From: Kribbella voronezhensis
Lineage (GTDB): Bacteria; Actinomycetota; Actinomycetes; Propionibacteriales; Kribbellaceae
Direction: 5' to 3'
Assembly: GCF_004365175.1 (NCBI RefSeq)
Contig: NZ_SOCE01000002.1
Coordinates: forward strand, 124,001 to 188,000
DNA: 64,000 bases
Notes under the pieces: model-generated
Database searches by the model: none
The model's input: the letters and a program-made list of their open reading frames with translations, nothing else
What the model was told of the DNA's origin: nothing
Position numbers and translations under genes: made by a program
Shown: in pieces, positions 31,749 to 47,679 of the stretch
Layout: the number at the start of each line of letters is the position of its first letter
Numbering within the stretch: the stretch's first letter is position 1

Positions 31749-32864
31749 ATGCTCTGGAAGATCAGGACCGAACTCGCCGACCGGCCGGGCGCACTGGCCG
31801 AACTCGCAGCACGGTGTGGTGCCGACGAGATCAACATCCTCAGCCTGGAGGTCTTCACCGCCGAGTCCGGCGCTGTGGACGAGCTAGTGGTGTCCACTGG
31901 TGTCGGCTGGACCGCAGAGACGCTCACTGCTCTGGTCGCAGAGGCAGGCTGCGTCCGTACGACGGTTCGCCCCTGCCAGGCCGATGTCCTGAACGACGCC
32001 CCGACCAGATACCTCCGTGCCGTACTGCGGCTGCTCGACGACCCCATGTCGGTCGACGAGGAACTGGAGAACCTGCAGGGCTTCGACGAGTACACCCCGG
32101 CCGAGTGGGCCAGGGCGGACGTACTGGTGGAGATCGCCGGCCGACTGGTCGAGCGTGACCAGGGCGTCGTACAGGAGGGCCCGCGACCAGGCACCGGCGT
32201 ACCGGAGTTGCGTCGGGCCACTGTCGAGGACGCCGAGGCCGTAGTGGCGATGCACGAGCGCTGTTCGTACGAGAGCCGCACACGCCGCTACCACGTGCCC
32301 ATGGCGAAGCTCACCACCCGTACTGCGCGGCACCTGTCCGCGCCCGCCGGTGGCATCTCCGTGGTCGCCTCTGTCGGTGACGCGATCGTAGGCATGGCCA
32401 CTGCTGCTCCCTGGGACGAACTGGGCAGCACCGCGATGGAGATGGCCGTGCTGGTCGAGGACGGCTGGCAGAACCAGGGCCTGGGGAGTCAGCTGCTGCG
32501 GCGAGTGATCCAGGAGGCCCGGGAGCTGGGAGCGGACCGGGCCGTGTGCATGGTGCAACCCGAGAACGTCGCCATGCTGCGCACTGTCGAGGGACTGCGG
32601 ATGCGGACCAGGGTGGTGCAGGATAGCGGTCATCTGATGGTGACCGTCGCACTGTCCGATCAGAGCCTGTCGCATGCGGTGGATCGGCCACCGGTGCCCT
32701 ATCGTCAGACGCGTGCCATCCCTGCCCACCGGTCGCAATCCGCACGGTCTCTTGGTCAACCTGCCCGCGAGCACTCGCTCGCCGGTGGTGGAGCTGTCGC
32801 GGCGACTGCTGATCGCGCTGGGGCTGTTGATCCTGATGGTGCTCATCGTTCTGGTCGACCGTGA
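31749..32864 (+). CDS. ACT domain-GNAT acetyltransferase fusion, extended C-terminus
   Basis: 371 codons; ATG 31749 with GAGGG upstream. Residues 1-70 are an ACT domain (KIRTELADRPGALAELAARCGADEINILSLEVF), which usually binds amino acids. Residues about 150-302 are a GNAT domain with the acetyl-CoA loop VLVEDGWQNQGLGSQLLRRVI. It probably acetylates a substrate under amino-acid control. The recognisable fold ends at about 32654 (VTVAL). The last 70 codons are low-complexity, and 152 bp overlap the K+ channel frame, whose own coding starts at 32713. The tail therefore appears to be read-through after loss of a stop codon or a sequencing frame error, not a real domain. Confidence 0.85.
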   Translation: MLWKIRTELADRPGALAELAARCGADEINILSLEVFTAESGAVDELVVSTGVGWTAETLTALVAEAGCVRTTVRPCQADVLNDAPTRYLRAVLRLLDDPMSVDEELENLQGFDEYTPAEWARADVLVEIAGRLVERDQGVVQEGPRPGTGVPELRRATVEDAEAVVAMHERCSYESRTRRYHVPMAKLTTRTARHLSAPAGGISVVASVGDAIVGMATAAPWDELGSTAMEMAVLVEDGWQNQGLGSQLLRRVIQEARELGADRAVCMVQPENVAMLRTVEGLRMRTRVVQDSGHLMVTVALSDQSLSHAVDRPPVPYRQTRAIPAHRSQSARSLGQPAREHSLAGGGAVAATADRAGAVDPDGAHRSGRP

Positions 32865-33786
32865 CGGCTACAAGGACACCTACGACGGCCGCGTCGGCTT
32901 CATCGACAGCATCTACTACGCGACCGTCACGCTGACCACGACCGGGTACGGCGACATCACGCCGGTGACGCCCACTGCCCGGCTGGTCAACGCCTTCATC
33001 GTCACGCCACTGCGGATCTCCTTCCTGGTGGTACTGGTCGGCACCACCCTGGAAGTCTTGGCGAACGAAGGTCGCCGCGTCATGCGCGACACACGATGGA
33101 GGAAGCGCATGAAGGACCATGTGGTCGTCGTCGGCTACGGCACCAAGGGCCGTTCGGCCGTGCAGACCCTGCTCAGCAACGGCGTCAAGCGCGAGAAGAT
33201 CGTGGTGATCGACCCGCGCGCCACCGCGATCGGTGACGCGGGCAACGATCAGATCGCCGCCTTCCACGGCGACGCGACCAACCGGACCGTACTGCGCCGG
33301 GCCGAGGTCGTCGCCGCCCGCGAGGTCATCGTCACAACGGATCGTGACGACTCCGCGGTGCTCGTCACCCTGGCCGTCCGACAGTTGAACCCGAAGGCGC
33401 ACATCGTCGTCGCCGTCCGCGAAGAGGACAACGTCCCGCTACTCCGCCAGAGCGGCGCGGACGCCGTCGTCACCTCGTCGGAGGCCGTCGGCCGGCTCCT
33501 CGGTCTGTCGGCGGTCAGCCCGAACCTGGGTGAGGTGATGGAAGACCTCCTCACGTACGGCGAAGGCCTCGAGGTCGCCGAACGCCCGGTCCTCGGCCGC
33601 GAGGTCGGCAAGGCGCCGTCCTCGGTGCCGGACCGAGTCGTCTCCGTCGTCCGCGACGGCAAGGTCCACCGGTACTACGACTCGTCCGTCTCGGTGCTGG
33701 CCGCCGGCGACAAACTCATCGTCGTCCGGCCGGCCAAGGAAACGCCCTGGGCCGAACGCCCGGGCGCGGACGACCAGGAAGAGTAG
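32713..33786 (+). CDS. Ion-channel/TrkA-N potassium channel protein
   Basis: 357 residues. Start chosen at GTG 32713: a TATCGT box lies 7 nt before it, implying a leaderless mRNA. Two transmembrane helices (RLLIALGLLILMVLIVLV and, after the pore loop, FIVTPLRISFLVVLVGTTLEVL) flank a K+ selectivity filter TTTGYGD at residues 75-81, followed by an RCK/TrkA-N domain (VVVVGYGTKGRSAVQTLL, VVIDPR, FHGDATN) and a TrkA-C-like C-terminal region. Such proteins form Kch/MthK-like channels gated by nucleotides or cations. It overlaps the ACT-GNAT gene by 152 bp in another frame. Confidence 0.9.
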   Translation: MPSLPTGRNPHGLLVNLPASTRSPVVELSRRLLIALGLLILMVLIVLVDRDGYKDTYDGRVGFIDSIYYATVTLTTTGYGDITPVTPTARLVNAFIVTPLRISFLVVLVGTTLEVLANEGRRVMRDTRWRKRMKDHVVVVGYGTKGRSAVQTLLSNGVKREKIVVIDPRATAIGDAGNDQIAAFHGDATNRTVLRRAEVVAAREVIVTTDRDDSAVLVTLAVRQLNPKAHIVVAVREEDNVPLLRQSGADAVVTSSEAVGRLLGLSAVSPNLGEVMEDLLTYGEGLEVAERPVLGREVGKAPSSVPDRVVSVVRDGKVHRYYDSSVSVLAAGDKLIVVRPAKETPWAERPGADDQEE

Positions 33787-34345: not shown

Positions 34346-35434
34346 GTGAGTCGTCCGACGGTTGCCGGTGTGGCCCGGGCTGCTGGGGTTTCGGTGGCTT
34401 CGGTGTCGCGCGTGCTGAACGGGTTGCCGGCCACCGAGGAGATGGTCGGGCGGGTTCAGCGGGCCGTCGAGGAGCTCGGGTACGTGCCGGACGCACGGGC
34501 GCGGTCGCTGAAGGTGGGGCGGACGTTTCAGCTCACGCTCGCTGTCGCCGATGTCGGTAACCCGGTCTACGTGACGATGATGCGCGCCGTGGAGGAGGTC
34601 GTGTCAGCCGCCGGTTATCGGCTCGTCGTGACCACCACCGGGCCGGATGTCGCGGACGAGGTTGCGCTGGTGCGGGGGATGGCTCGCGGGTACGCCGACG
34701 GCCTGGTGATCAGCCCGCTGCGGGTCGACGACGACCTGATCAAGTCGATCCGCGAGTGCGACGTGCCGGTGGTTGTCGCAGGCAACGTGCCGGCCAGCGC
34801 CGGTGTCGACACGATCCGCGCGAACTCGCCGAAGGGGATGCTGCTCGCGGTCGAACACCTGCTGCAGAAGGGCCGCCGCCGGATCGCCTTCCTGAACGGA
34901 CCGCGCGACACGGTTCCCGGTACGGCGCGCGCGAAGGGCTTCGCCGAGGCGATGAAGGCGAACGGGCTGCGACCGGTGGCCGAGGTCGAGGCGGCCGACT
35001 TCACCTTCGCCGCGGGCCGCGAGGCCGGCCGCGAGTTGCTGTCCGGGCTGGGTGCCGGCTCGAATCGCGCCGATGCTCGAGGCGTGGCCCCGGGCGACCG
35101 CGGCAGGGCTGGTGTCGCTGGTGGCCCCGCTGCCAAGCGCCGCAGATCGGCCCCCGACGCGGTGATCGCGGCGAACGATCTGCTCGCGGTCGGGTTGATG
35201 CACGAGCTCGCGGCCGTAGGGCTCGAAGTACCGAGGGATGTTGCTGTGGTCGGGATGGACGACAGCGAGCTGGCCGAGCAGTCGTTCCCCCCGCTGACGA
35301 GTGTGAACCTCGGTTCCGCCGAACGGGGGCGGCGGGCCGCTGAGTTGCTGCTGGCAAGGATCGACGACGACACCCGTACGCCGCGGCGCATCGTCGTGCA
35401 GCCGACCCTCAGTGTCCGGAGGTCGACCCCATGA
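34346..35434 (+). CDS. LacI-family transcriptional repressor of the sugar operon
   Basis: 362 residues, GTG start with AGGAGG 4 nt upstream. The N-terminal HTH is TVAGVARAAGVSVASVSRVLNGL with hinge ATEEMVGRVQRAVEELGYVPDARARSLKVGRT; the sugar-binding type I periplasmic fold follows (LTLAVADVGNPVYVTMMRAVEEV to SVRRSTP). The segment NRADARGVAPGDRGRAGVAGGPAAKRRRSAPDAVIAANDLLA carries a 25-residue Arg/Gly/Ala-rich insert before the usual AIIAANDLLA core, which is not found in typical LacI proteins. Its stop overlaps the first permease start by 4 bp. It is the first gene of the operon and, with the operator at the promoter, an autorepressor. Confidence 0.93.
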   Translation: MSRPTVAGVARAAGVSVASVSRVLNGLPATEEMVGRVQRAVEELGYVPDARARSLKVGRTFQLTLAVADVGNPVYVTMMRAVEEVVSAAGYRLVVTTTGPDVADEVALVRGMARGYADGLVISPLRVDDDLIKSIRECDVPVVVAGNVPASAGVDTIRANSPKGMLLAVEHLLQKGRRRIAFLNGPRDTVPGTARAKGFAEAMKANGLRPVAEVEAADFTFAAGREAGRELLSGLGAGSNRADARGVAPGDRGRAGVAGGPAAKRRRSAPDAVIAANDLLAVGLMHELAAVGLEVPRDVAVVGMDDSELAEQSFPPLTSVNLGSAERGRRAAELLLARIDDDTRTPRRIVVQPTLSVRRSTP

Positions 35435-36324
35435 GCGCCGTCACCACAGGCAGGCCGAAGCAGAACAGGGAAGCGATCTACCTGTTCCTGCCCGCGCTGC
35501 TTCCGATCCTGCTGTTCAGCGTCTACCCGTTGCTGCGCGGCCTCGCGCTCGGTTTCACCGACGCGAAGGCGGGCCTGCACGTTCAGACCAACTTCATCGG
35601 CTTCGGCAACTTCAGCAAGTTGCTGCACAACGATCTGTTCTGGTCGTCGTTCAAGATCGGCTTGATCTGGACGTTGTCCGTGACGATTCTTCAGTTCGTG
35701 GCGGCGCTCGGCCTCGCCTTGTTGCTGAACACGAACCTCCGCTTCCGTGGCGTCGCCCGTACGCTCGCGCTGATCCCGTGGGCGATGCCCCCGGTGGTGG
35801 TCGCGATCATGTGGCGGTTGCTGCTGCACCCGACCAACGGACCGGTCAACGAGATCCTGCAGAACCTGCATCTGACCGACCATCCGATCAACTTCCTCGG
35901 CAACTTCAGTACTGCGTTGCCGGCGGTGATCGTGGTCGGGATCTGGGTCGGCATGCCGATGACCACGGTGACCCTGCTCGCCGGTCTGCAAGGCATCGAC
36001 AGGTCCCTGTACGAAGCGGCGGCCGTGGACGGCGCGGGCGGGTGGCACCAGTTCTGGAACATCACCCTGCCGCAACTGCGGACCGTGATCGTGGCGATCA
36101 CCAGTCTGGACATGATCTGGAACTTCAATTCGTTCGGCCTGGTCTACGTGCTGACCGCGGGCGGTCCGGGTGGCAAGACGATGCTGCCGATGCTGTTCGC
36201 CTACAACGAGGCGTTCCGGTACGGGAACTTCGGGATGGCGGCCGCGATGGGTGACGTGATGGTCGTGATCATCATCGTGTTCCTGGCCTTCTATCTGCGC
36301 AACCGGCTGAGGAGCCAGGCATGA
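35431..36324 (+). CDS. Carbohydrate ABC importer permease 1 (MalF/UgpA-like)
   Basis: 297 residues, about six transmembrane helices (EAIYLFLPALLPILLFSVYPLL and onward). The cytoplasmic EAA loop is LYEAAAVDGAGGWHQFWNITLPQL (around residue 195), which contacts the ATPase. It forms the membrane channel with the next gene. The start is the ATG at 35431 inside the LacI stop. Confidence 0.93.
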   Translation: MSAVTTGRPKQNREAIYLFLPALLPILLFSVYPLLRGLALGFTDAKAGLHVQTNFIGFGNFSKLLHNDLFWSSFKIGLIWTLSVTILQFVAALGLALLLNTNLRFRGVARTLALIPWAMPPVVVAIMWRLLLHPTNGPVNEILQNLHLTDHPINFLGNFSTALPAVIVVGIWVGMPMTTVTLLAGLQGIDRSLYEAAAVDGAGGWHQFWNITLPQLRTVIVAITSLDMIWNFNSFGLVYVLTAGGPGGKTMLPMLFAYNEAFRYGNFGMAAAMGDVMVVIIIVFLAFYLRNRLRSQA

Positions 36325-37169
36325 GCCGGCAACGTTTGGGGACGGCGCCCGCCACCCGCGCCGCGCAGTACGTCGCGGTCGTCTGCTACCTGATCTTCCT
36401 AGGGTTCCCGCTGCTCTGGCTGATCTCCACCTCGCTGAAGTCGCCGCAGGAGTTCGCGAGCATCGATCCCTCCTTTCTGCCCAAGCATCCGGACTTCTCG
36501 AACTTCACGGATGCGCTGGAGGAGCAAGGGCTGGTCCGGTCGATGCTGAACTCCTTGCAGGTCTCGGTCGCGTCGACCGTGCTCGTGCTGATCGTCTCGT
36601 TGCCGGTGGCGTACGCGCTGGCCAGGTTCCGCAGCCGGCTGCGGCCGATCACCAACGGGTGGATCCTGGTCAGCCAGGTGTTCCCGGTGATCCTGATCGT
36701 GATCCCGCTGTTCATGATCCTGCGGCCGCTGCACCTGACCAACACGATCCCGGGCGTGGTGATCGTCTACACGGTCTGGTCGATGCCGTTCGCCCTGTGG
36801 ATGCTGCAGGGGTACGTCGCCGCCGTACCGCGAGAGCTCGAAGAGGCCGCGTCCGTCGACGGCGCCAGCCGGGTCCGCACCATCGTGTCGATCGTGATGC
36901 CACTGCTCAGGCCGGGGCTGATCGCGACCGCCATGTTCACCTTCATCTCGGCGTGGAACGAGTTCTTCTTCGCCCTGGTCCTGCTGCAGGACCCACAACT
37001 GAAGACGTTGCCGCTGGTACTCGCCCGCTTCGTCGGTGCGGAGGGCCAGGTCCAGTTCGGACCCCTCGCGGCGGCGTCCGTCCTTGCCACTGTTCCCAGC
37101 CTTGTTTTCTTCGCCTTCCTGCAGCGCCGGTTGACCTCCGGCTTGCTCAGTGGCGCTGTCAAGGGTTAG
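36321..37169 (+). CDS. Carbohydrate ABC importer permease 2 (MalG/UgpE-like)
   Basis: 282 residues, six helices and the EAA loop LEEAASVDGASRVRTIVSIVMPLLRPGL around residue 175. The gene starts inside the stop of permease 1. No ATP-binding subunit is encoded in the operon; as for many actinomycete CUT1 systems, a shared MsiK-type ATPase elsewhere would be needed (inference). Confidence 0.93.
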   Translation: MSRQRLGTAPATRAAQYVAVVCYLIFLGFPLLWLISTSLKSPQEFASIDPSFLPKHPDFSNFTDALEEQGLVRSMLNSLQVSVASTVLVLIVSLPVAYALARFRSRLRPITNGWILVSQVFPVILIVIPLFMILRPLHLTNTIPGVVIVYTVWSMPFALWMLQGYVAAVPRELEEAASVDGASRVRTIVSIVMPLLRPGLIATAMFTFISAWNEFFFALVLLQDPQLKTLPLVLARFVGAEGQVQFGPLAAASVLATVPSLVFFAFLQRRLTSGLLSGAVKG

Positions 37170-37190: not shown

Positions 37191-38471
37191 ATGAAAAAGG
37201 TACTGATCTCGTTGCTGGCGGCAAGCGCCTTGGTGACGCTCGCGGCCTGCGGCGACGACAAGGGGTCCGGTTCGGGCTCCGGTGACTCGAACGAGAAGGT
37301 GACGCTGAAGTTCCAGAGTCTCGCCTTCCAGAAGACCACGGTCGCCGCGACCAAGAAGATCGTCGCGGACTGGAACGCGGCCAACCCGAACACCCAGGTC
37401 GAATACGTCCAGGGCAGCTGGGACTCGGTGCACGACCAGTTGGTCACGCAGTTCCAGGGCGGCACCGCGCCCGACGTCATCCAGGACGAGTCGGCCGACA
37501 TCACCGGCTTCGCGAACCAGGGGTACCTCGCCGACCTCTCGCCGTACCTGAGTCAGGAGACGAAGGACGCCGTGTCGAAGGGTGTCTGGGACACCGTGTC
37601 GAGCGACGGCAAGGTGTTCGCCGCGCCGACCCTGCTGCAGTCGTACGTCGTGTTCGGCAACACCAAGCTGCTCAAGCAGGCCGGGATCTCCACCACCGGC
37701 GATTCGCTCAGCTGGGACGACCTGCAGGCGAACGCCAAGAAGCTCACGGCCGGCGGCAAGTACGGACTCGGCTGGGGCCTGAAGAGCCCGACCGCGACCG
37801 TGCTGAACCTCGGGATGAACTTCGACGGCACGTTCTTCGAGGGCACCGGCCGCGACGCCAAGGCGAAGATCGGCGACCCGGAACTCGAGGTGCCGAAGCG
37901 GATCCACGCGATGGCCTACACCGACAAGTCGATCGACCCGACGTCGCTGACCCAGAGCGGTTCCGACGTACTGCCAGGGTTCTTCGGTGGCAAGTACGCG
38001 ATGATTGTCGGCGGCAACTATGCGGCGCAGCAGATCGTCGAGCAGGGGCCGAAGGGCTTCGAGTGGGAGGTACTGCCGCCGCTGAAGGGGACGTCGGAGA
38101 AGCAGGCGGCGAACCCGCAGACCCTGTCGGTACCGGCCGAGGGCAAGCACGTGAAGCAGGCGGCGCAGTTCATCGACTACTTCATGAAGGCCGACAACCT
38201 CGCCGCGGTCGGCCAGGGCGACTGGCTGATCCCGACCACGCAGGCGGCGCGCGACGCGATCGCCAAGGCCACCGGTGGCAAGAACGGCTGGACCCAGACG
38301 CTGGCCAGTGGTGCCGAACTGACCAAGGCGCCGTTCCAGAGCGTGGAGAACTACCCGAAGTGGAAGGACCAGATCGCCACTCCGGCGCTGCAGGAGTTCC
38401 TGGCGAACAAGATCGATCTCGCCACGCTGGGCAAGAAGCTGAGCGACGGGTGGGGACAGGTCAACGGCTGA
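37191..38471 (+). CDS. Extracellular solute-binding lipoprotein of the importer
   Basis: 426 residues, ATG preceded by GAGGAG. Lipobox LAACG with Cys20, then the CUT1-type binding fold: VTLKFQSLAFQKTTVAATKKIVADWNAANPNTQVEYVQGSW, DVIQDESADITGFANQGYLADLSPYL and later PGFFGGKYAMIVGGNYAAQQIVEQGPKGFEWEVLPPLKG. Tethered outside the membrane, it delivers a carbohydrate-like ligand to the two permeases. The ligand cannot be read from sequence; the downstream genes point to a ribosylated compound. Confidence 0.93.
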   Translation: MKKVLISLLAASALVTLAACGDDKGSGSGSGDSNEKVTLKFQSLAFQKTTVAATKKIVADWNAANPNTQVEYVQGSWDSVHDQLVTQFQGGTAPDVIQDESADITGFANQGYLADLSPYLSQETKDAVSKGVWDTVSSDGKVFAAPTLLQSYVVFGNTKLLKQAGISTTGDSLSWDDLQANAKKLTAGGKYGLGWGLKSPTATVLNLGMNFDGTFFEGTGRDAKAKIGDPELEVPKRIHAMAYTDKSIDPTSLTQSGSDVLPGFFGGKYAMIVGGNYAAQQIVEQGPKGFEWEVLPPLKGTSEKQAANPQTLSVPAEGKHVKQAAQFIDYFMKADNLAAVGQGDWLIPTTQAARDAIAKATGGKNGWTQTLASGAELTKAPFQSVENYPKWKDQIATPALQEFLANKIDLATLGKKLSDGWGQVNG

Positions 38472-39625
38472 TGCCTGAGAATGCCAGTACTTCCCTGCTC
38501 GAAGACAAGTCGGTGGGTGCCCTCGTCGGCTCGGCGGTCGGTGACGCGATCGGTGGTGCCGTCGAGGGCTGGAGCCCCGAGGCGATCCGGGAGCGGCACG
38601 GCGGCTGGGTGACCGGCATCGTCGGTCCGTGGTACGACGACTGGCGCAACGCGCGGCCGATCGCGCCGTACCACAAGGGCGACGGGCACATCACCGACGA
38701 CACCTTGATGACACACGCGCTGGTCGAGGTGTACGACGAACGCCGCCAGCACCTCGATGCCTATGCGATCGCCGAGTCGCTGGTGCCGAAGCTGCTGATC
38801 GGGAAGCGCTGGGTTCCGGAGTTGGAGACCGACGCTCTCTTGTTGCAGCGGGTGTTTCTGGCCGAGAAGTGGTTGGTGGCGCGGTTGCACTACGGGCACA
38901 ACGATCCGCGCGAGGCCGGCGTCGGCAACATCGTGAACTGTGGCGCGGCGATGTACGTGGCGCCGGTCGGGATCGCCAACGCCGGTGATCCCGCCGGGGC
39001 CTATGCCGAGGCGATCGATCTGGCCGGCGCGCATCAGTCGAGCTACGGACGAGAGGCGGCCGGAGTGTTTGCGGCCGCGGTCGCGGCGGCGATGATGCCT
39101 GAGGCAACGGCTTCGTCGGCGGTGGCGGAGGCGCTCTCCCTGGCGAAGGACGGGACGCGGGCGGCGGTCGAGGCCGTCGCGGCAGCCGCGGACGGGCTCG
39201 ACGACTGGGAGCAGGCGATTCCTGTCCTGCGGCGCGCGGTCGAGCCGTTCGACACGGTCGGACCGGACTATCGCGACCAGTCGCTCGATGCCCGGCGACC
39301 GAGCCGGACGAAGGCGATCGAGGAGTTGCCGGTCGCGCTCGGGTTCGTGCTCGTGTCGGGTGGCGATGTGCGGCAGGCGGTGCTCGGCGGGACCAACTAC
39401 GGGCGCGACGCCGACTCGATCGCGTCGATGGCGGGCGCGATCACGGGTGCGCTGAGCGGAGCCTCCGGCGTACCGGGGGACTGGGCGGCGGACATCGCTG
39501 AGGCGAGCCGGACGGATCTGGAGCTGCCGGGGCGGGTGATGGCGTCGGTCGCGGCGGAACTGCACGAGTCCGACGCGCGCCGCTGGTCGCGTCGGAGTGA
39601 ATCGTTGGAGAGACTGAGGCGATGA
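38471..39625 (+). CDS. ADP-ribosylglycohydrolase-fold protein 1
   Basis: 384 residues; ATG 38471 directly follows the binding-protein stop (TGATG). The ARH fold signatures are present: VGALVGSAVGDAIGGAVEGWSPEAI at the N-terminus, the metal-binding ITDDT at about 74-78 and, near the C-terminus, GTNYGRDADSIASMAGAITGALSG. ARH enzymes cleave the O- or N-glycosidic bond of ADP-ribose on proteins or small molecules, with two Mg ions. The acidic residues that bind them appear intact. In an import operon it is more likely to act on a small imported ribosyl glycoside than to reverse protein ADP-ribosylation; this is inference. Also in this family: DraG, crystallins and N-ribosyl hydrolases. Confidence 0.9.
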   Translation: MPENASTSLLEDKSVGALVGSAVGDAIGGAVEGWSPEAIRERHGGWVTGIVGPWYDDWRNARPIAPYHKGDGHITDDTLMTHALVEVYDERRQHLDAYAIAESLVPKLLIGKRWVPELETDALLLQRVFLAEKWLVARLHYGHNDPREAGVGNIVNCGAAMYVAPVGIANAGDPAGAYAEAIDLAGAHQSSYGREAAGVFAAAVAAAMMPEATASSAVAEALSLAKDGTRAAVEAVAAAADGLDDWEQAIPVLRRAVEPFDTVGPDYRDQSLDARRPSRTKAIEELPVALGFVLVSGGDVRQAVLGGTNYGRDADSIASMAGAITGALSGASGVPGDWAADIAEASRTDLELPGRVMASVAAELHESDARRWSRRSESLERLRR

Positions 39626-41013
39626 GACTGACCTGGGTGCAGCCGGAGGATTTGCTGCCACACCAGCTGGTCCAATCCCGCGCGGAGGGCGTCGACGTCA
39701 CCGACATCGAGTCCCGCTGGCGAGACGCAGGCGGTACGACGGAAGCCCCTGTCTCCGGCGCCTCGGACAAACCGGCCCCGCCCGTACTACGAACCCTCGC
39801 CCGAGAACTCCTCGACGAGCTCGACACCCGCACTCCCGAGTGGACCCCACCCCAGATCCCACAGCTACCACTGCTCGGCGACGCCGCCTCCGCTACGCGG
39901 GCCGGCTGGGCGGGGGGCAAAGCGCTGGGCCGCGGTGCGGACTCGCCGGGCTCGGCTTCGCTTCGCTCGCCTGGGTTGGACGGGCGGGTGTTGGGCGCCT
40001 GGGTGGGGCGGGCGGCGGGAAACCTGTTGGGGAAGCCGGTGGAGAAGATTCCTCGGGAGGGGATCAGGGAGATTCTTCAGAGTTCGGGGCAGTGGCCGTT
40101 GGGGCGGTATGTGACTGCGGTGGGGGTACCGGACGAGGTGCAGCAGAGGTGGCCGTGGAATCGGCGGTCGAAGCCGATCAGTTTGCGTGAGGTGATCGAT
40201 GGGATGCCGGAGGATGACGATCTCAACTTCGCGATCCTTGCCTTGCAGTTGGTAGAGCGGCACGGGGACGGGCTGACCACGGAAGATGTCGCCACGGCTT
40301 GGTTGAACGATTTGCCGGCCGGGCGGGTGTTCACGGCTGAGCGGGTGGCCTACCGCAACCTGCTCGAGGGTGTGGAGCCGGAGCGAGCTGCCGTGATCAG
40401 GAACCCGTTCCGAGAGTGGATCGGTGCGCAGATCCGCACCGACGTCTACGGGTGGGTGCACCCCGGTGATCGGACCGCCGCGGCGCGGTTGGCGCTGACC
40501 GACGCGCGGTTGAGCCACACGGGCGCAGGGGTCGACGGCGCCATCTGGGTAGCCGCGATGTCAGCTGCCGCGCTGGTGCTCGACGATCCGCGCGAGGTGG
40601 CGCTTGCCGGGCTGGAGGCGATCGCTCCGGATGGTGAGATCGCCCGAGCGGTGCGCTTCGGCTTGGCCCTCGCCGATGATCCACTGGACGACGCGCTGGA
40701 CCGGCTGCACGCGGAGTACGGGCACCTGCACTGGGTGCACTCGGTCAACAACAGTGCGCTCACGGCGTACGCGCTGACGGCCCCGGATTTCGCCACCGGG
40801 ATCGGTCGCGCGGTGATGGGAGGGTGGGACACGGACTCGGCCGGTGCGACGACCGGTGCGGTGCTTGGCGCGGTGCTCGGGGTTCCGGCAGAGTGGGCCG
40901 GACCGTTGGACGACCGGCTGGCCACGAGCCTGCCGGGGATGAACCAGGTCGCGATCAGCGAACTGGCAGCACGGACTGTGGAGGCGGCATCGATGGTGGG
41001 CGAGCGTGGCTGA
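39622..41013 (+). CDS. ADP-ribosylglycohydrolase-fold protein 2
   Basis: 463 residues, starting inside the stop of protein 1. The first 110 residues are a separate module (MRLTWVQPEDLLPHQLVQ, Pro-rich linker) ahead of the ARH fold, which begins at GRVLGAWVGRAAGNLLGKPVEKI. The first metal motif is EDDDLNF, in place of TDDT, and the second is GGWDTDSAGATTGAVLGAVLG. The two ARH copies are divergent, so they may act on different bonds or form a heteromer. The insert between LGDAASATRAGWAGGKALG and the fold is variable. Confidence 0.88.
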   Translation: MRLTWVQPEDLLPHQLVQSRAEGVDVTDIESRWRDAGGTTEAPVSGASDKPAPPVLRTLARELLDELDTRTPEWTPPQIPQLPLLGDAASATRAGWAGGKALGRGADSPGSASLRSPGLDGRVLGAWVGRAAGNLLGKPVEKIPREGIREILQSSGQWPLGRYVTAVGVPDEVQQRWPWNRRSKPISLREVIDGMPEDDDLNFAILALQLVERHGDGLTTEDVATAWLNDLPAGRVFTAERVAYRNLLEGVEPERAAVIRNPFREWIGAQIRTDVYGWVHPGDRTAAARLALTDARLSHTGAGVDGAIWVAAMSAAALVLDDPREVALAGLEAIAPDGEIARAVRFGLALADDPLDDALDRLHAEYGHLHWVHSVNNSALTAYALTAPDFATGIGRAVMGGWDTDSAGATTGAVLGAVLGVPAEWAGPLDDRLATSLPGMNQVAISELAARTVEAASMVGERG

Positions 41014-41902
41014 CGTCGTCGTCGTGGGAAGCGCGAACGTGGACCTGGTGTTGCCGGTGCAGCGGATCCCGCGACCGGGCGAGACCGTTCTCGCGAGCGG
41101 CTTGTCCCGCGGCCCCGGCGGCAAGGGCGCGAACCAGGCCGTGGCCGCGGCCCGGGCCGGAGCGTCGACCGCTTTCGTCGCCTCGCTCGGAGCGGACGAG
41201 TCCGGCGAGTTGTTGCGGACGGCCCTGACCGAGTCGGGCGTCGACCTGTCGCTGGTGTCGACAACCAGTACGCCGACCGGTACGGCGATCATCACCGTCG
41301 CGGCCGATGGCGAGAACTCGATCGTCGTCGCGCCGTCCGCGAACGCCGAGCTCGCGCTCTCCGCCGAAGCTCTCAGCGCGATCCGGTCGGCGAAGGTCGT
41401 GCTCGCCCAGCTGGAGATCCCGTTCCCGACCGTCCAGGCCGCGGCCGAGGCGAGTTCGTACTTCGTCCTCAACGCGGCGCCGGCGGCCGAGCTGTCCGAC
41501 GAGCTGCTCGCCCAGGTCGATCTGCTGGTGGTGAACGAGACCGAGGCGGAGGCGGTCGGCGGATTGTTGCTCGATCGCGTCCCCGCCGCGGTGATCACAC
41601 TCGGGGCCGAGGGCGCGGTGATCCTGACCCGCGGTGCGGCGGAGGTCCGGGTGCCCGGCGTACCGGTCGAGGTGGTCGACACGACGGCTGCGGGAGACAC
41701 CTTTTGCGGGGTTCTCGCGGCGACATTGGCTGCCGCGTCAACTAGTTCGGCAAATACCGGTTCAGTTACGGTGGGCGACCTGACGAATGCGGTCCGACGC
41801 GCTAACGTTGCTGCTTCATTGAGCGTTAAAACGGCGGGAGCGATCCCTTCGGTGCCACACGGGGAAAACATCGACGCGCGTGCTGCGGAGGTATACCTGT
41901 GA
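41006..41902 (+). CDS. rbsK: Ribokinase (PfkB family)
   Basis: 298 residues; GTG start overlapping the stop of the preceding gene by 8 bp. PfkB signatures: SANVDLVLPVQRIPRPGETVLASGLSRGPGGKGANQAVAAARAGA (first, with the ribokinase GGKGANQA), ATP site VNETEAEAVGG and the catalytic DTTAAGDTFCG with Asp as the base. It would phosphorylate ribose released by the ARH-fold proteins to ribose-5-phosphate. The match to ribokinase is strong; other PfkB sugars are possible. Confidence 0.88.
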   Translation: MADVVVVGSANVDLVLPVQRIPRPGETVLASGLSRGPGGKGANQAVAAARAGASTAFVASLGADESGELLRTALTESGVDLSLVSTTSTPTGTAIITVAADGENSIVVAPSANAELALSAEALSAIRSAKVVLAQLEIPFPTVQAAAEASSYFVLNAAPAAELSDELLAQVDLLVVNETEAEAVGGLLLDRVPAAVITLGAEGAVILTRGAAEVRVPGVPVEVVDTTAAGDTFCGVLAATLAAASTSSANTGSVTVGDLTNAVRRANVAASLSVKTAGAIPSVPHGENIDARAAEVYL

Positions 41903-43887
41903 ACCCCCTCGTGCCCCGGCCGATCGACCTGCCGGCCAAGGTCGATCTCGGCCTGCGAGCGGATCTCGCCCTACTCGACGATGCCAAGATCCTCGGCGCA
42001 CCCGAGGACCCGACGGACCTGCCCCGCTGGCGCGGCAAGCTGGCCGAGTGGCTGATCGGGGCCTACGACCGGACCCCGTACGACGGGTCGCACTACGAGG
42101 TCCCCGGCCGGGAATGGACCCAGACGGCGTACTCCGTCGCGCTGGTCTGGCTCTGGGACGAGCAGTTGTACGACGTCCGCACGGGTCGGTTCACCCCGGA
42201 GAAGTTCGTGCAGTGCGGCGTCGACGACTTCGGCGGCTACGACGCGGTGGTGCTCTGGCACGCGTATCCGGTGATCGGGATCGACTCGCGCAACCAGTTC
42301 GACTTCTACCGGGATGCTCCGGGGCTGGCGGACCTGGTGGCCGACCTGCACCGGCTGGGGCTGAAGGTCTTCCTCGACTACAACCCGTGGGATGTCGGGA
42401 CGCGGCGGATGACGAGGTCCGACGCGGACGAATTCGCTGCCCTGGTAGCCGAACTCGATGCCGACGGCGTCTTTCTGGACACCTTGAAGGAAGGCGATCC
42501 GGCCTTCACCCGGGCGCTGCAGAAGGTGAAGCCGGCGATCGCCTTCGAGGGCGAGTCACGGTTGCCGATGGCAAGGATCGGTGACCACGCGCTGTCCTGG
42601 GCGCAGTGGTTCGCCGACACCCGGGCGCCCGGCGTCCTGCGGGCGCACCTGTTCGAGCGCCGGCACATGATGCACCACACCCGCCGGTGGAACCGCGATC
42701 ACAGTGACGAGTTGCAGTCGGCCTGGGTGAACGGCGTCGGCATGCTGGTCTGGGAGTCGGTGTTCTCGGCCTGGGTCGGCTGGAACGCGCGCGACCGGGC
42801 CACCCTGCGCCGGATGGTGGCCGCACAGAGAGCGTTCTCTCCGATCCTGATCAACGGCGACTGGATCCCGTTGACGCCGGAGATCCCGGACAAGGCCCGT
42901 GAGCACGGCGTGTTCGGCTCCCGGTTCGAACTGGCCGACGTCACCTTCTGGACCTTGATCAACCGCGACGAGGAGGACTTCGAGGGCATCGTCCTGCGGT
43001 CCGAGGATCAGGTCGGCGACTGGTACGACGTGACGTCGGGCGTGCCGATCACTGCTGACGACGACGGTGTACACCTCGTCGTACCCGGTCGCGGCGTGAC
43101 CGGCATCGTCCGGATCGGTGCGACCGCCGGAGCCACCTGCCGCGCGACCGCCAGGCGGCTGGGCACGATGGAGCGGCCGCATGTCAAGGACTCGGCGTTC
43201 CCGATGGCTCCTGCGGTGCGGTCCGCCGTTCCGGAGGTGTCCGGCGAGGCCGAGATCGGTCCGGTCGTCGAGGTGCCGGCGGGGGAGCGCTCTCTGCCGA
43301 TCCGGTACCGCCGCCGCGAGACGGGGATCTACGACCAGGCGCCGTACGTGGAGGAGTGGAAGCCGCTGCCGCCCAGACTGCACGACCAACGCACCGAGAC
43401 GCGCGAGATCGCGCTCTCCGGGATCTCTGTGGCGATCCGGGAGGTGACCAACGCGCAGTACCGGGAATTCCTGGCTGCGACCGGGTATCGACCGTTGGTG
43501 GCCAACCGGTTCCTGGCGCATTGGGTGGACGGTGCGCCCGCGCCGGGGACCGAAGACCAGCCGGTGACGTACGTCGATCTGCCGGATGCGCGGGCGTACG
43601 CCGAGTGGCGCGGTGGGCGGTTGCCGACCGAGGACGAGTGGCAGGTGGCCGCCGGGCTGGACGGGTTCACCCGGGCGGAGCCGCTGGTCTGGAACCTGAC
43701 CGAGAGCGAGCACAGTGACGGGCGCAGCCGGTTCTGCATCCTCAAGGGTGGTTCCTGGTTCGTTGCCGAGGGCTCCGACTGGTACGCCGACGGCGGGCCG
43801 CAGGAACCGGAAGTGAGCTTCAAGCTGGTACTCACCGGTGGCGGGCTGGACCGTTCGGAGACGATCGGCTTCCGCTGCGCCGGTTGA
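41899..43887 (+). CDS. Glycosidase-like barrel fused to an FGE/SUMF1-like domain
   Basis: 662 residues, start ATGA-coupled to the kinase. The N-terminal 380 residues look like an alpha-galactosidase-type TIM barrel (GIDSRNQFDFYRDAPGLADLVADLHRLGLKVFLDYNPWDVG, then DGVFLDTLKEG with a candidate nucleophile Asp, then AIAFEGESR). Residues about 400-455 are beta-rich. From about 500 it has the sulfatase-modifying (FGE/EgtB/PvdO) pattern EVTNAQYREFLAATGYRPLV, YVDLPDARAYAEWRGGRLPTEDEWQVAAG, ILKGGSWF and GFRCAG. The Cu-binding Cys pair expected after GGSW is absent, so it is unlikely to make formylglycine. The combination is unusual and I know no characterised homologue. Confidence 0.8.
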   Translation: MNPLVPRPIDLPAKVDLGLRADLALLDDAKILGAPEDPTDLPRWRGKLAEWLIGAYDRTPYDGSHYEVPGREWTQTAYSVALVWLWDEQLYDVRTGRFTPEKFVQCGVDDFGGYDAVVLWHAYPVIGIDSRNQFDFYRDAPGLADLVADLHRLGLKVFLDYNPWDVGTRRMTRSDADEFAALVAELDADGVFLDTLKEGDPAFTRALQKVKPAIAFEGESRLPMARIGDHALSWAQWFADTRAPGVLRAHLFERRHMMHHTRRWNRDHSDELQSAWVNGVGMLVWESVFSAWVGWNARDRATLRRMVAAQRAFSPILINGDWIPLTPEIPDKAREHGVFGSRFELADVTFWTLINRDEEDFEGIVLRSEDQVGDWYDVTSGVPITADDDGVHLVVPGRGVTGIVRIGATAGATCRATARRLGTMERPHVKDSAFPMAPAVRSAVPEVSGEAEIGPVVEVPAGERSLPIRYRRRETGIYDQAPYVEEWKPLPPRLHDQRTETREIALSGISVAIREVTNAQYREFLAATGYRPLVANRFLAHWVDGAPAPGTEDQPVTYVDLPDARAYAEWRGGRLPTEDEWQVAAGLDGFTRAEPLVWNLTESEHSDGRSRFCILKGGSWFVAEGSDWYADGGPQEPEVSFKLVLTGGGLDRSETIGFRCAG

Positions 43888-43967
43888 GCAGCCCGGACGG
43901 CAAGGCAGGAACGAGAAATCGGGGATGAGAAGACGGGGATGAGGATGTGCGGGATGAGCCGGTTGCG

Positions 43968-45155
43968 ATGAGACCTGCGCCTTTGCAAGGGGTCAAGGTG
44001 CTGGAGGCCGCGACCCTGTTCGCGGGTCCGCTGGCGGCGACCTTCCTCGGCGACTTCGGTGCGGACGTGACGAAGATCGAGCACCCGGCCAAGCCGGACG
44101 CCGCGCGCGGTCACGGCACCAGCAAGAACGGGGTCGGCCTGTGGTTCAAGACGCTGGGCCGGAACAAGCGGCTGGCGACGCTGGACCTCTCCCAGGGCCG
44201 TGAGGTCTTCCTCGACCTGGTCCGCGCGAACGACGTGCTGGTGGAGAACTTCCGCCCCGGCACGCTCGAGCGCTGGGGCCTCGGTCCCGACGTCCTGCTC
44301 GAAGCCAACCCGCGGCTGGTGATCGCGCGCGTGACCGCGTTCGGTCAGGTCGGTCCTTGGTCGAGGCGGCCGGGCTTCGGTTCGCTGGCCGAGGCGATGA
44401 GCGGCTTCGCCGCCGTCACCGGTGAGCCCGACGGACCGCCGACGCTGCCACCGTTCGGCCTCGCCGACGGGATCACCGCCCTGGCCACCGCGTACGCCGT
44501 ACTGGTGGCGCTCCGCGAGCGGGATCGGTCGGGGGCCGGTCAGGTGATCGACATGGCGATCATCGAGCCGATCCTGATGATGCTGGGCGGCGGCATCACG
44601 GCGTACCAGCAGACCGGGTACGTCCAGCCCCGGCTGGGGAACCGCTCGTCGAACAACGCACCCCGCAACGTCTACCGGACCGGCGACGGCCGGTGGGTCG
44701 CCGTCTCGACGAGTTCGCAGAGCATCGCCGAGCGGGTGGTCACGCTGGTCGGGCGGCCCGATCTGGTCGCCGAGCCGTGGTTCGGCACCGGCCGGGAACG
44801 CGCCGAGCATGCCGACGAGTTGGACGAGGCCGTCGGCTCCTGGATCGGGGAGCGCTCTCTGGACGAGGTCATGCTCGCGTTCGAGAAGGCGGAGGCGGCT
44901 GTTGGGCCGGTACACGACATCCGCGGGATCGTGACCGACCCGCAGTACGCCGCGCTGAACACGATCGTCGAGGTCGACGATCCCGAGCTGGGCGGTCCGG
45001 TGCAGATGCAGAACGTGCTCTTCCGGCTCTCCGAATCACCCGGCTCGATCCGCTGGGCCGGCCGCCCGCACGGCGCCGACACCGACGACGTCCTGGCCGA
45101 GATCGGCGTCACCCCGGACCAACTCGCGGCGCTGCGAGAACGCGGCGTGATCTGA
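43968..45155 (+). CDS. Class III CoA-transferase (CaiB/BaiF)
   Basis: 395 residues. Start chosen at ATG 43968 (MRPAPLQGVKVLEAATLFAGP), typical for the family; GTG 43947 is in frame too. Features: GVKVLEAATLFAGPLAATFLGDFGADVTKIEHP at the N-terminus, RVTAFGQVGPWSRRPGFGSLAEAMSGF, and the catalytic Asp in FGLADGITALA. It transfers CoA between carboxylates. Placed next to a CitE-like lyase, it may activate the acid moiety released from the imported compound (inference). It begins 80 bp after the fusion gene stop, a gap rich in repeated GGGGATGAG. Confidence 0.9.
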   Translation: MRPAPLQGVKVLEAATLFAGPLAATFLGDFGADVTKIEHPAKPDAARGHGTSKNGVGLWFKTLGRNKRLATLDLSQGREVFLDLVRANDVLVENFRPGTLERWGLGPDVLLEANPRLVIARVTAFGQVGPWSRRPGFGSLAEAMSGFAAVTGEPDGPPTLPPFGLADGITALATAYAVLVALRERDRSGAGQVIDMAIIEPILMMLGGGITAYQQTGYVQPRLGNRSSNNAPRNVYRTGDGRWVAVSTSSQSIAERVVTLVGRPDLVAEPWFGTGRERAEHADELDEAVGSWIGERSLDEVMLAFEKAEAAVGPVHDIRGIVTDPQYAALNTIVEVDDPELGGPVQMQNVLFRLSESPGSIRWAGRPHGADTDDVLAEIGVTPDQLAALRERGVI

Positions 45156-45974
45156 ATGCTCACCGCTCTCTACGTTCCCGCGAACAGGCCCGACCGGTTC
45201 GCGAAAGCTGTTGCCGCGGGCCCCGATCTCGTGGTGTTCGACCTGGAGGACGCCGTACCGGTCGACGACAAGGCCGATGCCCGGAGCTGGGCTGTCGCCT
45301 GGGTGGCGGCGCGTTCGGGCGGGTCGTTCGAAGTCCGGGTGAACGCGGCGGGGACGCCGTGGATCGAGGACGACCTGGCGGCGCTGGCCGCAGTACCGGC
45401 GGTGCGGATCCGATTGCCGAAGGTGGAGAGCGCGACCGACGTACGCCGGGTGCTGGATCAGGTGCCGACGGCAAGGATCACCGCGCTGATCGAGTCGCCG
45501 CTCGGGCTGGAACGCGCCTTCGAGATCGCGATGGCGGATCCACGCGTGGTCGCGGTCGCGCTGGGAGAGGCCGATCTGATGAGTTCGCTCGGCGTCGACG
45601 GCCCCGAAGGACTCGCCTGGGCCCGCGGCCGGCTGGTGTCGGCGTCGCGCGCCGCGGGGCTGGGCGCGCCGATGCTGTCGGTGTATCCGCACGTAAACGA
45701 CGAGGACGGCCTTCGTCGGACCTGTCTCGAGGGCCGGGCGCTTGGCTTCGTCGGGCGGACGGCGATCCATCCGCGGCAGTTGGCGCCGATCATCGAGAGC
45801 TTCACCCCGTCGGCGACCCAGGTGGCCGACGCGGCCGCGTTACTGGCCGCGGTGGAGAAGGCAGGGGTCGCGGAGGGCGGCGTGATCGTGCTGCCCGACG
45901 GACGGATGGTCGATCCGGCGATGCTCGGCCGCGCGCGTGAGATCGTCGACCTGATGAACCAACTCGAACACTGA
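45156..45974 (+). CDS. CitE/HpcH-type CoA ester lyase
   Basis: 272 residues; ATG 45156 directly follows the CoA-transferase stop. Motifs: LYVPANRPDRFAKAVAAGPDLVVFDLEDAVP with the Mg-binding Glu-Asp, VRVNAAGTPW, ALIESPLGLERAF with the second Glu, and VALGEADLMSSLG. It is predicted to split a beta-hydroxyacyl-CoA such as citramalyl- or malyl-CoA into acetyl- or pyruvyl-type products. It is the last gene of the operon; 119 bp separate it from the next start. Confidence 0.9.
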   Translation: MLTALYVPANRPDRFAKAVAAGPDLVVFDLEDAVPVDDKADARSWAVAWVAARSGGSFEVRVNAAGTPWIEDDLAALAAVPAVRIRLPKVESATDVRRVLDQVPTARITALIESPLGLERAFEIAMADPRVVAVALGEADLMSSLGVDGPEGLAWARGRLVSASRAAGLGAPMLSVYPHVNDEDGLRRTCLEGRALGFVGRTAIHPRQLAPIIESFTPSATQVADAAALLAAVEKAGVAEGGVIVLPDGRMVDPAMLGRAREIVDLMNQLEH

Positions 45975-46092
45975 TCACCTGCAGGCACGCAGTGTGATCA
46001 GCATCGGCGGTGGGGTGAAAGAGACGTAAATCAGACCGACCTCCGCGCCCACCGGGCGAGAAACCGTGAGCAGACCAGCTAGGGTCGATTTC

Positions 46093-47679
46093 ATGCTGCC
46101 GCGTGTTGTTGATGCTGTGGTGATCGGCTCGGGCCCGAACGGGCTGGTGAGCGCGATCACGCTCGCCGACAGAGGCTGGGACGTGCTGGTGCTGGAGGCG
46201 GCCGACCGGTTCGGCGGCGCCGTGCGTTCGGTCGAGCAGGACGGCTGGATCAGCGACCGGTTCAGCTCCAGCTATCCACTCGGTGTGGCGTCACCGGTAC
46301 TGCGAGCGCTCGAACTCGACAAGTTCGGGCTGCAGTGGGGACACGCGCCGTCGCCGTTGACCCACCTGCTGGATCCCGAGACGGCGGCCACGATCCACGA
46401 GGACCCGAACGACACGGCTTCGTCCCTCGCGGTGGAGCACCCGGCGGACGGAGAAGCCTGGCTTCGGCTCTACTCGCAGTACGTGAAGATCCGCGAGCCG
46501 TTCCTGGATGCCCTGCTGACGTCGTGGCCGCCGGTGACGGCCGGCCTGCGACTGACCCGGCGGCTCGGGTCGGCCGGCGAGCTGGCCAGGTTCGCGCGCT
46601 TCATGGCGATGCCGATGCACCGGATGGGCCAGGAGCTGTTCGCAGGTCCGCGAGGTCGCGCTCTCCTCGCCGGGAACGCGTTTCACGCGGACGCACCGTT
46701 GACCGGCAGCGTCAGTGGCACGATGGGCTGGTTGCTCGCGATGCTGGCCCAGGATGTCGGATTCCCTGTTGCCGTCGGCGGTTCCAGCTCGCTGTCGACC
46801 GCGCTGGTACGCCGTGGCGAGCGGGCCGGGGTGCTGCTGGCGTCCGGTTCGCCGGTCGAGGGTCTCGAGGTCTCGATGGGGAAGGTCACCGGCGTACGGA
46901 CGGCCTCGGGCGAGCGCGTGGCCGTACGCCGTGCCGTGATCGCCGACGTGTCCGCACCGATGCTGTACGGCGAGTTGTTGCCGGAGGCAAGTGTTCCCGC
47001 GGGATTGCGGCGGGACCTGGAGAACTTCGAGTGGGACTACCCGACGGTGAAGCTGAACTACCGGCTGAGCGGGCCGATCCCGTGGCAGGCGGAGGCGGCG
47101 CGATCGGCCGGCGTCGTCCATCTCGGTGGCACCGCGGACGACCTGGTGCACACCTCGGCGGACCTCGAGACCGGTCGCGTGCCGACCGAGCCGTTCCTGC
47201 TCATCGGCCAGACGACCAAGGCGGATCCGTCGCGGTCTCCGGCCGGGAGCGAGGCGGTGTGGGCGTACTCGCATCTCCCGCGCGGTCTCGCCGACGACGC
47301 TGCGGCCGAGAAGCTCGCCGGACGGATGGATCGGGCGATCGAGCGGTACGCGCCGGGGTTCCTCGACCTGGTGGTGGATCGCGATCTGCAGCGGCCGAGC
47401 GATCTGGCGGCTGCCAACGCGTCGCTGGCGCTCGGCGCGCTCGGTGGCGGGACCACGCAGCTTCACCAGCAGCTCATCTTCCGCCCGACGATCGGGCTCG
47501 GCAGTCCACGAACGGTCGTCTCAGGCCTGTACCTCGGCAGTTCCGCCATCCATCCGGGTCCCGGCGTCCACGGCGCCTGCGGCCACTTGGCCGCCCGCAC
47601 AGCCCTCCGCGACGCTTCTGCTTTAGGAGCCCTCACCCGTACGCCGGCTACCGCCGCCCTCCGGCATCTCCAGCGCTGA
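46093..47679 (+). CDS. FAD-dependent oxidoreductase, phytoene-desaturase-like
   Basis: 528 residues. Start chosen at ATG 46093 (MLPRVVDAVVIGSGPNG): TAGGGT lies 7 nt upstream (46080-46085), indicating a leaderless transcript, so the earlier in-frame GTG at 46066 is unlikely. The Rossmann GSGPNGLVSAITLADRGWDVLVLEAADRFGGAVRS and C-terminal HPGPGVHGACGHLAAR are typical of CrtI/COG1233 enzymes. Members desaturate carotenoids or act on other polyprenyl or aromatic substrates. No other carotenoid gene is nearby. Confidence 0.87.
   Translation: MLPRVVDAVVIGSGPNGLVSAITLADRGWDVLVLEAADRFGGAVRSVEQDGWISDRFSSSYPLGVASPVLRALELDKFGLQWGHAPSPLTHLLDPETAATIHEDPNDTASSLAVEHPADGEAWLRLYSQYVKIREPFLDALLTSWPPVTAGLRLTRRLGSAGELARFARFMAMPMHRMGQELFAGPRGRALLAGNAFHADAPLTGSVSGTMGWLLAMLAQDVGFPVAVGGSSSLSTALVRRGERAGVLLASGSPVEGLEVSMGKVTGVRTASGERVAVRRAVIADVSAPMLYGELLPEASVPAGLRRDLENFEWDYPTVKLNYRLSGPIPWQAEAARSAGVVHLGGTADDLVHTSADLETGRVPTEPFLLIGQTTKADPSRSPAGSEAVWAYSHLPRGLADDAAAEKLAGRMDRAIERYAPGFLDLVVDRDLQRPSDLAAANASLALGALGGGTTQLHQQLIFRPTIGLGSPRTVVSGLYLGSSAIHPGPGVHGACGHLAARTALRDASALGALTRTPATAALRHLQR

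Follow-up and report, generated by a model that had tools for sequence, protein, structure and literature searches.

What might be the function of a protein in which a barrel resembling those of glycosidases is fused to a SUMF1-like domain devoid of the cysteines of FGE? This question is raised by a gene at positions 41899 to 43887 of the window, i.e., the whole stretch of DNA analysed here, which comprises 64,000 nucleotides of Kribbella voronezhensis (contig NZ_SOCE01000002.1, positions 124,001 to 188,000 of the forward strand). An initial annotation of these letters placed a glycosidase-like barrel in the N-terminal half and a SUMF1/FGE domain in the C-terminal half of one open reading frame, and each of the sequence blocks it quoted, namely VFLDYN, GVFLDT, AFEGESR, EVTNAQY, RLPTEDEW, GGSWF, and GFR, is indeed present in that frame. 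A chance or artefactual frame can be ruled out, the fusion being conserved across many phyla. On balance, the fusion protein is probably a retaining glycoside hydrolase (GH), or transglycosidase, of an undescribed family, whose SUMF1-like module would be non-redox and which would take part in a pathway dismantling an imported sugar-acid conjugate.

At least 80 loci encoding the fusion were found through two sequence patterns, both lying in the C-terminal domain, and this collection is thus biased to fused members and does not constitute a census. Alignment A2 comprises 59 proteins, i.e., the window protein and 58 from 80 loci, near-duplicates being omitted and L058 and L073 dropped as truncated; with 27 further non-duplicate fusion sequences, the wider set amounts to 86. 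The AlphaFold2 model of the whole chain, computed on A2, has a mean pLDDT of 94.2 and a pTM of 0.93, and its residues 1-410 make up a (beta/alpha)8 barrel and, after it, a small beta domain of antiparallel strands. With VIA-align, barrel and beta domain together matched (i) the GH13 neopullulanase 1j0j (Z 19.6, rmsd 3.5, 330 residues aligned), (ii) GH129 8rzk and 5opq (Zobellia; Z 17.3, rmsd 4.1, 332 and 331 aligned), and (iii) the rice alpha-galactosidase 1uas of GH27 type (Z 16.7, rmsd 4.2, 305 aligned). The predicted fold thus keeps the N-terminal half inside the glycosidase barrels, as first proposed.

In this model, D194 closes barrel strand 4 and E219 immediately follows strand 5, the strand numbers being our own count from DSSP. 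The former position is occupied by Asp in 58 of the 59 A2 members and 26 of the 27 further sequences, the latter by Glu in 56/59 and 27/27, respectively. In GH13, GH101, and GH129, these positions are occupied by the nucleophile and the acid/base; a retaining glycosidase is therefore proposed, D194 being the probable nucleophile and E219 the probable acid/base. The predicted model exhibits the acid on strand 4, the acid on strand 5 and the barrel with a following beta domain that are associated with the GH13/GH101/GH129 type. The neopullulanase shares this layout and, as a GH13 enzyme, the Asp of strand 4 and the Glu of strand 5, but its identity to the fusion barrel is 13% and a Pfam GH13 match occurs in 0/59 A2 members; similarly, the GH129 structures resemble the barrel by fold but at 9% identity, with a Pfam match in 0/59.

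Alignment A3, composed of the N module alone (35 sequences), served as query for genome searches, where the hits fell into two classes, on the one hand, strong hits corresponding to the fusion and, on the other hand, weak hits corresponding to DUF6259-like proteins, the frames of which are mostly 1000 to 1350 amino acids (aa) long and of which five of five scanned match Pfam DUF6259. Aligned by hhalign with five DUF6259-containing proteins, the N module gave a probability of 99.7% (E 4.9e-26, 358 columns), D194 and E219 facing D213 and E259, both invariant in these five proteins. Pfam DUF6259 (PF19773) itself matched none of the 59 A2 members at E up to 1. Judging from these sequence comparisons, the N module is a sister family of DUF6259 and not a member of it: barrel and beta domain are homologous and both candidate acids stand at equivalent places, whereas in the DUF6259-like proteins of the weak hits the beta domain is the last part of the chain, and most of them are longer and have an extended N-terminal part. 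A search for DUF6259 in the genome of the window was empty, as were its controls, which gave no signal anywhere either; no mention of DUF6259 was found in the PMC literature searched.

Is the association of the two domains an accident of the window? When three phyla were sampled evenly (296, 294, and 288 genomes), the N module yielded 26 strong hits and the C domain was present in all 26, only partly so in L134, and in 21/21 once the centre genomes are set apart; it was present in 0/38 weak DUF6259-like hits, though their frames end inside the sequence stretch examined. As for the reading of these counts, scoring in the phylum samples covered at most 4 or 6 first-look candidates of each genome, so that misses are possible, four weak rows of one phylum sample were outside locus inspection, and in one earlier search the C domain was checked for the best ten rows and a few more; the 39 strong hits compared for linkage include the window twice as well as genes already in A2, and L113, the gene of which is broken by a stop, was left out of the strong-hit count. 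Moreover, the N and C halves show correlated p-distances (r 0.83; 3653 pairs from 86 proteins). A recent or local fusion is ruled out by these correlated distances and by the lack of any unlinked strong hit, and the C domain is therefore a regular part of the family and not a peculiarity of the window protein. The fusion is an old and real combination of known kinds, not a categorically new system. Its loci come from many phyla with a patchy distribution. Among 196 relatives searched, a full-length copy occurs in 38 of 38 genomes of the same genus, the window's own included, and in three of the other 158. Among the loci collected, the best named relative is Kribbella monticola, where the fusion protein is 98% identical. 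In 396 genomes sampled from the window's own phylum, one weak and two marginal N-module hits were obtained beyond the window, and viral contigs yielded no relative.

Regarding the C-terminal half, the window protein matched Pfam FGE-sulfatase (PF03781) at 1.5e-19, with 71.1 bits for a cut-off of 23.3, and the same family matched in 59/59 A2 members (E up to 1). Since the whole-chain Foldseek rows were filled by barrels, the C domain was modelled alone, and AlphaFold2 returned with a pLDDT of 91.9 the fold of the SUMF1 superfamily, i.e., C-type-lectin-like. By fold, SUMF2 (1y4j) came first (Z 16.2, rmsd 3.1, 177 aligned), tied with FGE (6muj; Z 15.7, rmsd 3.1, 179 aligned), and SenA (15.2), EgtB (14.7), PvdO (14.3, compared by fold alone), and CalU17 were within two Z units of SUMF2; in a profile search of PDB sequences, SUMF2 was again first (1.4e-22), FGE reaching 1.3e-19. 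Neither approach places this half outside the SUMF1/FGE superfamily, in agreement with the initial annotation. Like the window domain, SUMF2 (pFGE) is not known to have the FGE active site, but it is a stand-alone human protein, and the window domain is without the segment between the RLPTE and VW blocks. FGE belongs to the same superfamily and displays the same fold but has a Cu-binding Cys pair, which we take to be GGSxxCxxxxC following the GGS block. The motif GG[SAC]xxCxxxxC was found in 0/59 A2 members and 0/27 further sequences; the missing Cys pair, first remarked in the window protein, is thus a trait of the family. Without the copper site of FGE, the SUMF1-like domain would be a fixed, non-redox module that most likely binds the substrate or closes and shapes the active site, the whole-chain pTM suggesting, within the limits of a model, a fixed arrangement of the two domains.

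The fusion gene starts with GTG, preceded by ggagg at 41887-41891 and overlapping the stop of the upstream PfkB kinase gene (gtga, 41899-41902). As initially stated, it is part of an operon, namely ten genes between 34346 and 45974, all on one strand and nowhere more than 59 bases apart (Table 1).

Table 1. Coordinates in the window of the fusion gene, of the domains it encodes and of the other genes of the unit
Feature	Position	Strand	Evidence
LacI-family regulator, first gene of unit	34346..35434	+	Pfam LacI PF00356 2.2e-10, Peripla_BP_3 1.9e-36
ABC importer permease 1	35431..36324	+	Pfam BPD_transp_1 4.7e-23
ABC importer permease 2	36321..37169	+	Pfam BPD_transp_1 2.8e-22
Extracellular solute-binding protein	37191..38471	+	Pfam SBP_bac_1 3.9e-39
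ADP-ribosylglycohydrolase-like protein 1	38471..39625	+	Pfam PF03747 1.3e-48
ADP-ribosylglycohydrolase-like protein 2	39622..41013	+	Pfam PF03747 3.6e-46
PfkB sugar kinase	41006..41902	+	Pfam PfkB 3e-53; nearest NCBIfam ribokinase 238.9 bits, below equivalog cut-off 299.65
Fusion protein, putative glycosidase barrel and Cys-less SUMF1-like domain, 662 aa	41899..43887	+	Unbroken frame, Pfam, AlphaFold2, fold comparison
(beta/alpha)8 barrel, residues ~60-335, candidate catalytic D194 (strand 4) and E219 (strand 5)	42076..42903	+	DSSP of model, VIA-align, conservation
Antiparallel beta domain following barrel, residues ~338-408	42910..43122	+	DSSP; most aligned matches stop near residue 408
SUMF1/FGE-superfamily domain, short form, residues 450-662	43246..43884	+	Pfam match 500-588, separate AlphaFold2 model, SUMF2 fold match
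Class III CoA-transferase	43947..45155	+	Pfam CoA_transf_3 2.1e-114; NCBIfam matches all under cut-offs
HpcH/HpaI lyase	45156..45974	+	Pfam 2.4e-34; nearest NCBIfam RipC (itaconate degradation C-C lyase) 7.4e-48, 163.4 bits vs cut-off 375

This gene unit is conserved in Actinobacteria. Among the 80 loci, 48 are actinobacterial according to their record titles and 47 of these hold at least two ADP-ribosylglycohydrolase-like genes together with the CoA-transferase and the lyase, L022 being the locus without the last two; the solute-binding protein is present in 47/48 and the kinase in 40/48. The same set of ADP-ribosylglycohydrolase-like, transferase and lyase genes occurs without the kinase in three more loci, from Pelagibacterium, Trueperaceae, and Devosia. 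In L055 (Planctomycetota), two ADP-ribosylglycohydrolase-like genes precede the fusion (Pfam 4.9e-28 and 1.8e-23) and neither CoA-transferase nor lyase was found; as the ADP-ribosylglycohydrolase-like profile included both L055 proteins, their match to it is circular, and Pfam confirms both separately. When 107 sequences were scanned for the metal-site motifs of the ADP-ribosylglycohydrolase family, the motifs occurred together in 101, while six were without one or both, including the two of L055. The nearest NCBIfam models of the CoA-transferase are glutarate, formyl-CoA, and mesaconate transferases, all below cut-off.

From gene order and family names, we infer the following steps. In Actinobacteria, the fusion protein would act in the cytoplasm, downstream of an ABC importer bringing in a small sugar-acid conjugate. 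The ADP-ribosylglycohydrolase-like enzymes may release a pentofuranose, which the PfkB kinase would phosphorylate, and the fusion protein would cleave another glycosidic bond of the conjugate. The CoA-transferase might then convert the acid part, possibly a hydroxy acid, to its CoA thioester, which the HpcH lyase would cleave. A bolder version, which can only be entertained tentatively, is that the SUMF1 redox fold (Cu or Fe) has been converted in this lineage into a carbohydrate-recognition module that a new GH family always carries, and that this family makes up an undescribed pathway for pentofuranose-hydroxyacid conjugates with a CoA-transferase, an HpcH lyase and ADP-ribosylglycohydrolase-like glycosidases.

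Other neighbours of the fusion differ with lineage. In Sphingopyxis, the order is ribokinase-fusion-GH127-CoA transferase; a GH28 gene adjoins the fusion in Dyadobacter and Spirosoma; in Salinivirgaceae, three fusion copies are accompanied by PfkB, a nucleoside hydrolase, GH28 and a BD-FAE-type esterase. An alpha-L-fucosidase (Bacteroidetes bin), a GH3 (Armatimonadetes bin), and RhaT (Phycisphaerales bin) are also found beside the fusion. An esterase (PF00756) stands between the fusion and the CoA-transferase in Rugosimonospora and Micromonospora (L036:11995-13269 and L038:11946-14099), which hints at an acylated substrate. Other scanned neighbours have no clear link with sugar breakdown, e.g., DUF455, a glycosyltransferase, an epimerase, COX1, and a GGDEF/EAL protein, and L080:7860-9803, L065:8066-9835, and L076:6071-7039 matched none of the Pfam families.

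Several observations weigh against the proposal of a retaining glycosidase acting in such a pathway. Over the N-terminal half, no Pfam family, GH included, matched significantly in any of the 59 A2 members, the sole GH signal being GH97 at E 0.21; with the Pfam profiles alone silent on this half, the barrel assignment rests on predicted fold and profile-profile homology to DUF6259. The barrel fold is also common to other barrel enzymes. E219 is replaced by Gln in three A2 members, and one Salinivirgaceae paralogue has Asn at D194. Within the C domain, E474, D607, and K642 are kept in only 17/27 further sequences each. The sample of 396 genomes from the window's own phylum contained no strong hit besides the window. 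As for the operon, the kinase was not found in 8/48 actinobacterial loci, and the gene set is not kept outside Actinobacteria, Devosia, Pelagibacterium, and Trueperaceae: among 31 non-actinobacterial loci (L046 excluded), an ADP-ribosylglycohydrolase-like gene was present in 3 and CoA-transferase plus lyase in 2 within the stretch examined. Finally, kinase, transferase, and lyase all score below the curated cut-offs of their nearest NCBIfam models.

These points bear first on the C domain, which might be a ligand-free, purely structural stabiliser of the barrel. In A2, E474, D607, K642, W628, Y629, and R652 are each kept in 57 to 59 of 59 proteins, and the drop of the first three in distant members weakens the case for one conserved ligand, leaving room for such a structural role. 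The absence of a metal site is equally compatible with it, as is the fact that the domain is retained in a short form: where the long form (e.g., L055 of Planctomycetota, L057 of Bryobacteraceae, and L076 of Dyadobacter) has about 50 residues, the RYPWG and DMxGN blocks included, the window domain has 13, i.e., a segment of ~37 residues is gone. By parsimony, the switch between the two forms takes 7 changes on the tree of the N half and 3 on that of the C half, L134 being counted as short. On the contrary, W628, R652, and Y629 are still conserved in 26, 26, and 22 of the 27 further sequences, i.e., in 84, 83, and 80 of 86 overall, and the C domain accompanies every strong N-module hit examined, which makes a merely structural role rather improbable.

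Turning to the barrel, it could belong to a non-hydrolase, be it a lyase, an isomerase, a phosphorylase or an inactive binding scaffold, as the fold by itself does not fix the chemistry and the known GH profiles of Pfam fail to match. The layout of barrel plus beta domain, and the strand-4 Asp and strand-5 Glu common with DUF6259 proteins, nonetheless fit retaining glycosidases, and a non-hydrolase is regarded as unlikely.

The C domain might alternatively be an active oxidase or a sulfoxide-synthase-like enzyme with an unusual metal site, the fusion protein then being bifunctional. The SUMF1 fold is retained, and two public records (L001:3298-5433 and L002:14890-17064) name relatives as SUMF1/EgtB/PvdO family nonheme iron enzyme, the FGE cysteines being missing in these proteins too. 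This label is unsupported, since none of the 59 aligned and 27 further homologues has the FGE Cys pair. Besides, the C half has no invariant His or Cys: H495, C660, and H541 occur in 46, 44, and 38 of the 59 A2 members, and in 56, 70, and 61 of the wider set of 86. For EgtB and sulfoxide synthases, we take the defining feature to be a DinB-type domain carrying iron-binding His residues; none was detected in the Pfam scan of the 59 members, and the NCBIfam equivalog of EgtB scored 43 bits for a cut-off of 360. The short form moreover is without the ~37 residues kept by the long form. An active oxidase thus appears very doubtful, and a nonheme-iron or Cu enzyme was set aside as the main interpretation given the lack of invariant Cys or His in the C half. 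Among the options first offered for this domain, the different nonheme-iron type is thereby disfavoured, whereas a non-catalytic domain and a sugar-binding module stand as better readings. Maturation or protection of a sulfatase in the manner of FGE, which has only fold and sequence kinship with FGE and SUMF2 in its favour, is hardly credible with the catalytic cysteines missing, and it was set aside with 0/10 genes of the unit encoding a sulfatase.

The retaining glycosidase preferred here has consequences for naming. Members of the family occur across many phyla and are named nonheme iron enzyme in at least two public records, where a glycosidase is more likely on present evidence; the fusion protein is probably misnamed in databases. 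The initial remark that no described protein with this combination is known needs a correction: public sequence holds many copies of the fusion, and it already has a name in two plasmid records. No paper describing it was present among the PMC matches listed (best 20 of 730 and 15 of 1,845 in two cases). Beyond nomenclature, the family is a defined candidate for a new GH family and a possible case of a redox fold reused for a different purpose. The conserved unit of transport and breakdown is one whose substrate is accessible to growth and binding assays, and its composition points to a role of some ADP-ribosylglycohydrolase-like proteins in carbohydrate catabolism and not in protein ADP-ribosylation.

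Some additional features were observed around the fusion family. A second Bacteroidota subfamily (L129-L137) consists of proteins mostly 925-978 aa long, with ~200 extra residues ahead of the barrel and the SUMF1-like domain present. The three tandem fusion copies of a Salinivirgaceae metagenome-assembled genome (L119:3428-11375, same genome as L084) include the one with Asn for D194, which is the copy nearest to the window protein. The fusion genes of L113 (G204) and L107 (G202) have an in-frame stop (TAA and TAG, respectively), corresponding to either a broken gene or an assembly error. In two alphaproteobacterial loci (L054:5949-8048 and L046:3756-5852), the second ADP-ribosylglycohydrolase-like protein is ~700 aa long, the C-terminal part of that of L054 giving a weak Laminin_G match. 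In the window itself, an ion channel with a TrkA-N domain is encoded upstream of the operon (32674-33786), and a FAD-dependent oxidoreductase just downstream (46066-47679), a relative of which was seen, among the loci compared, only in five Kribbella loci (L005-L009).

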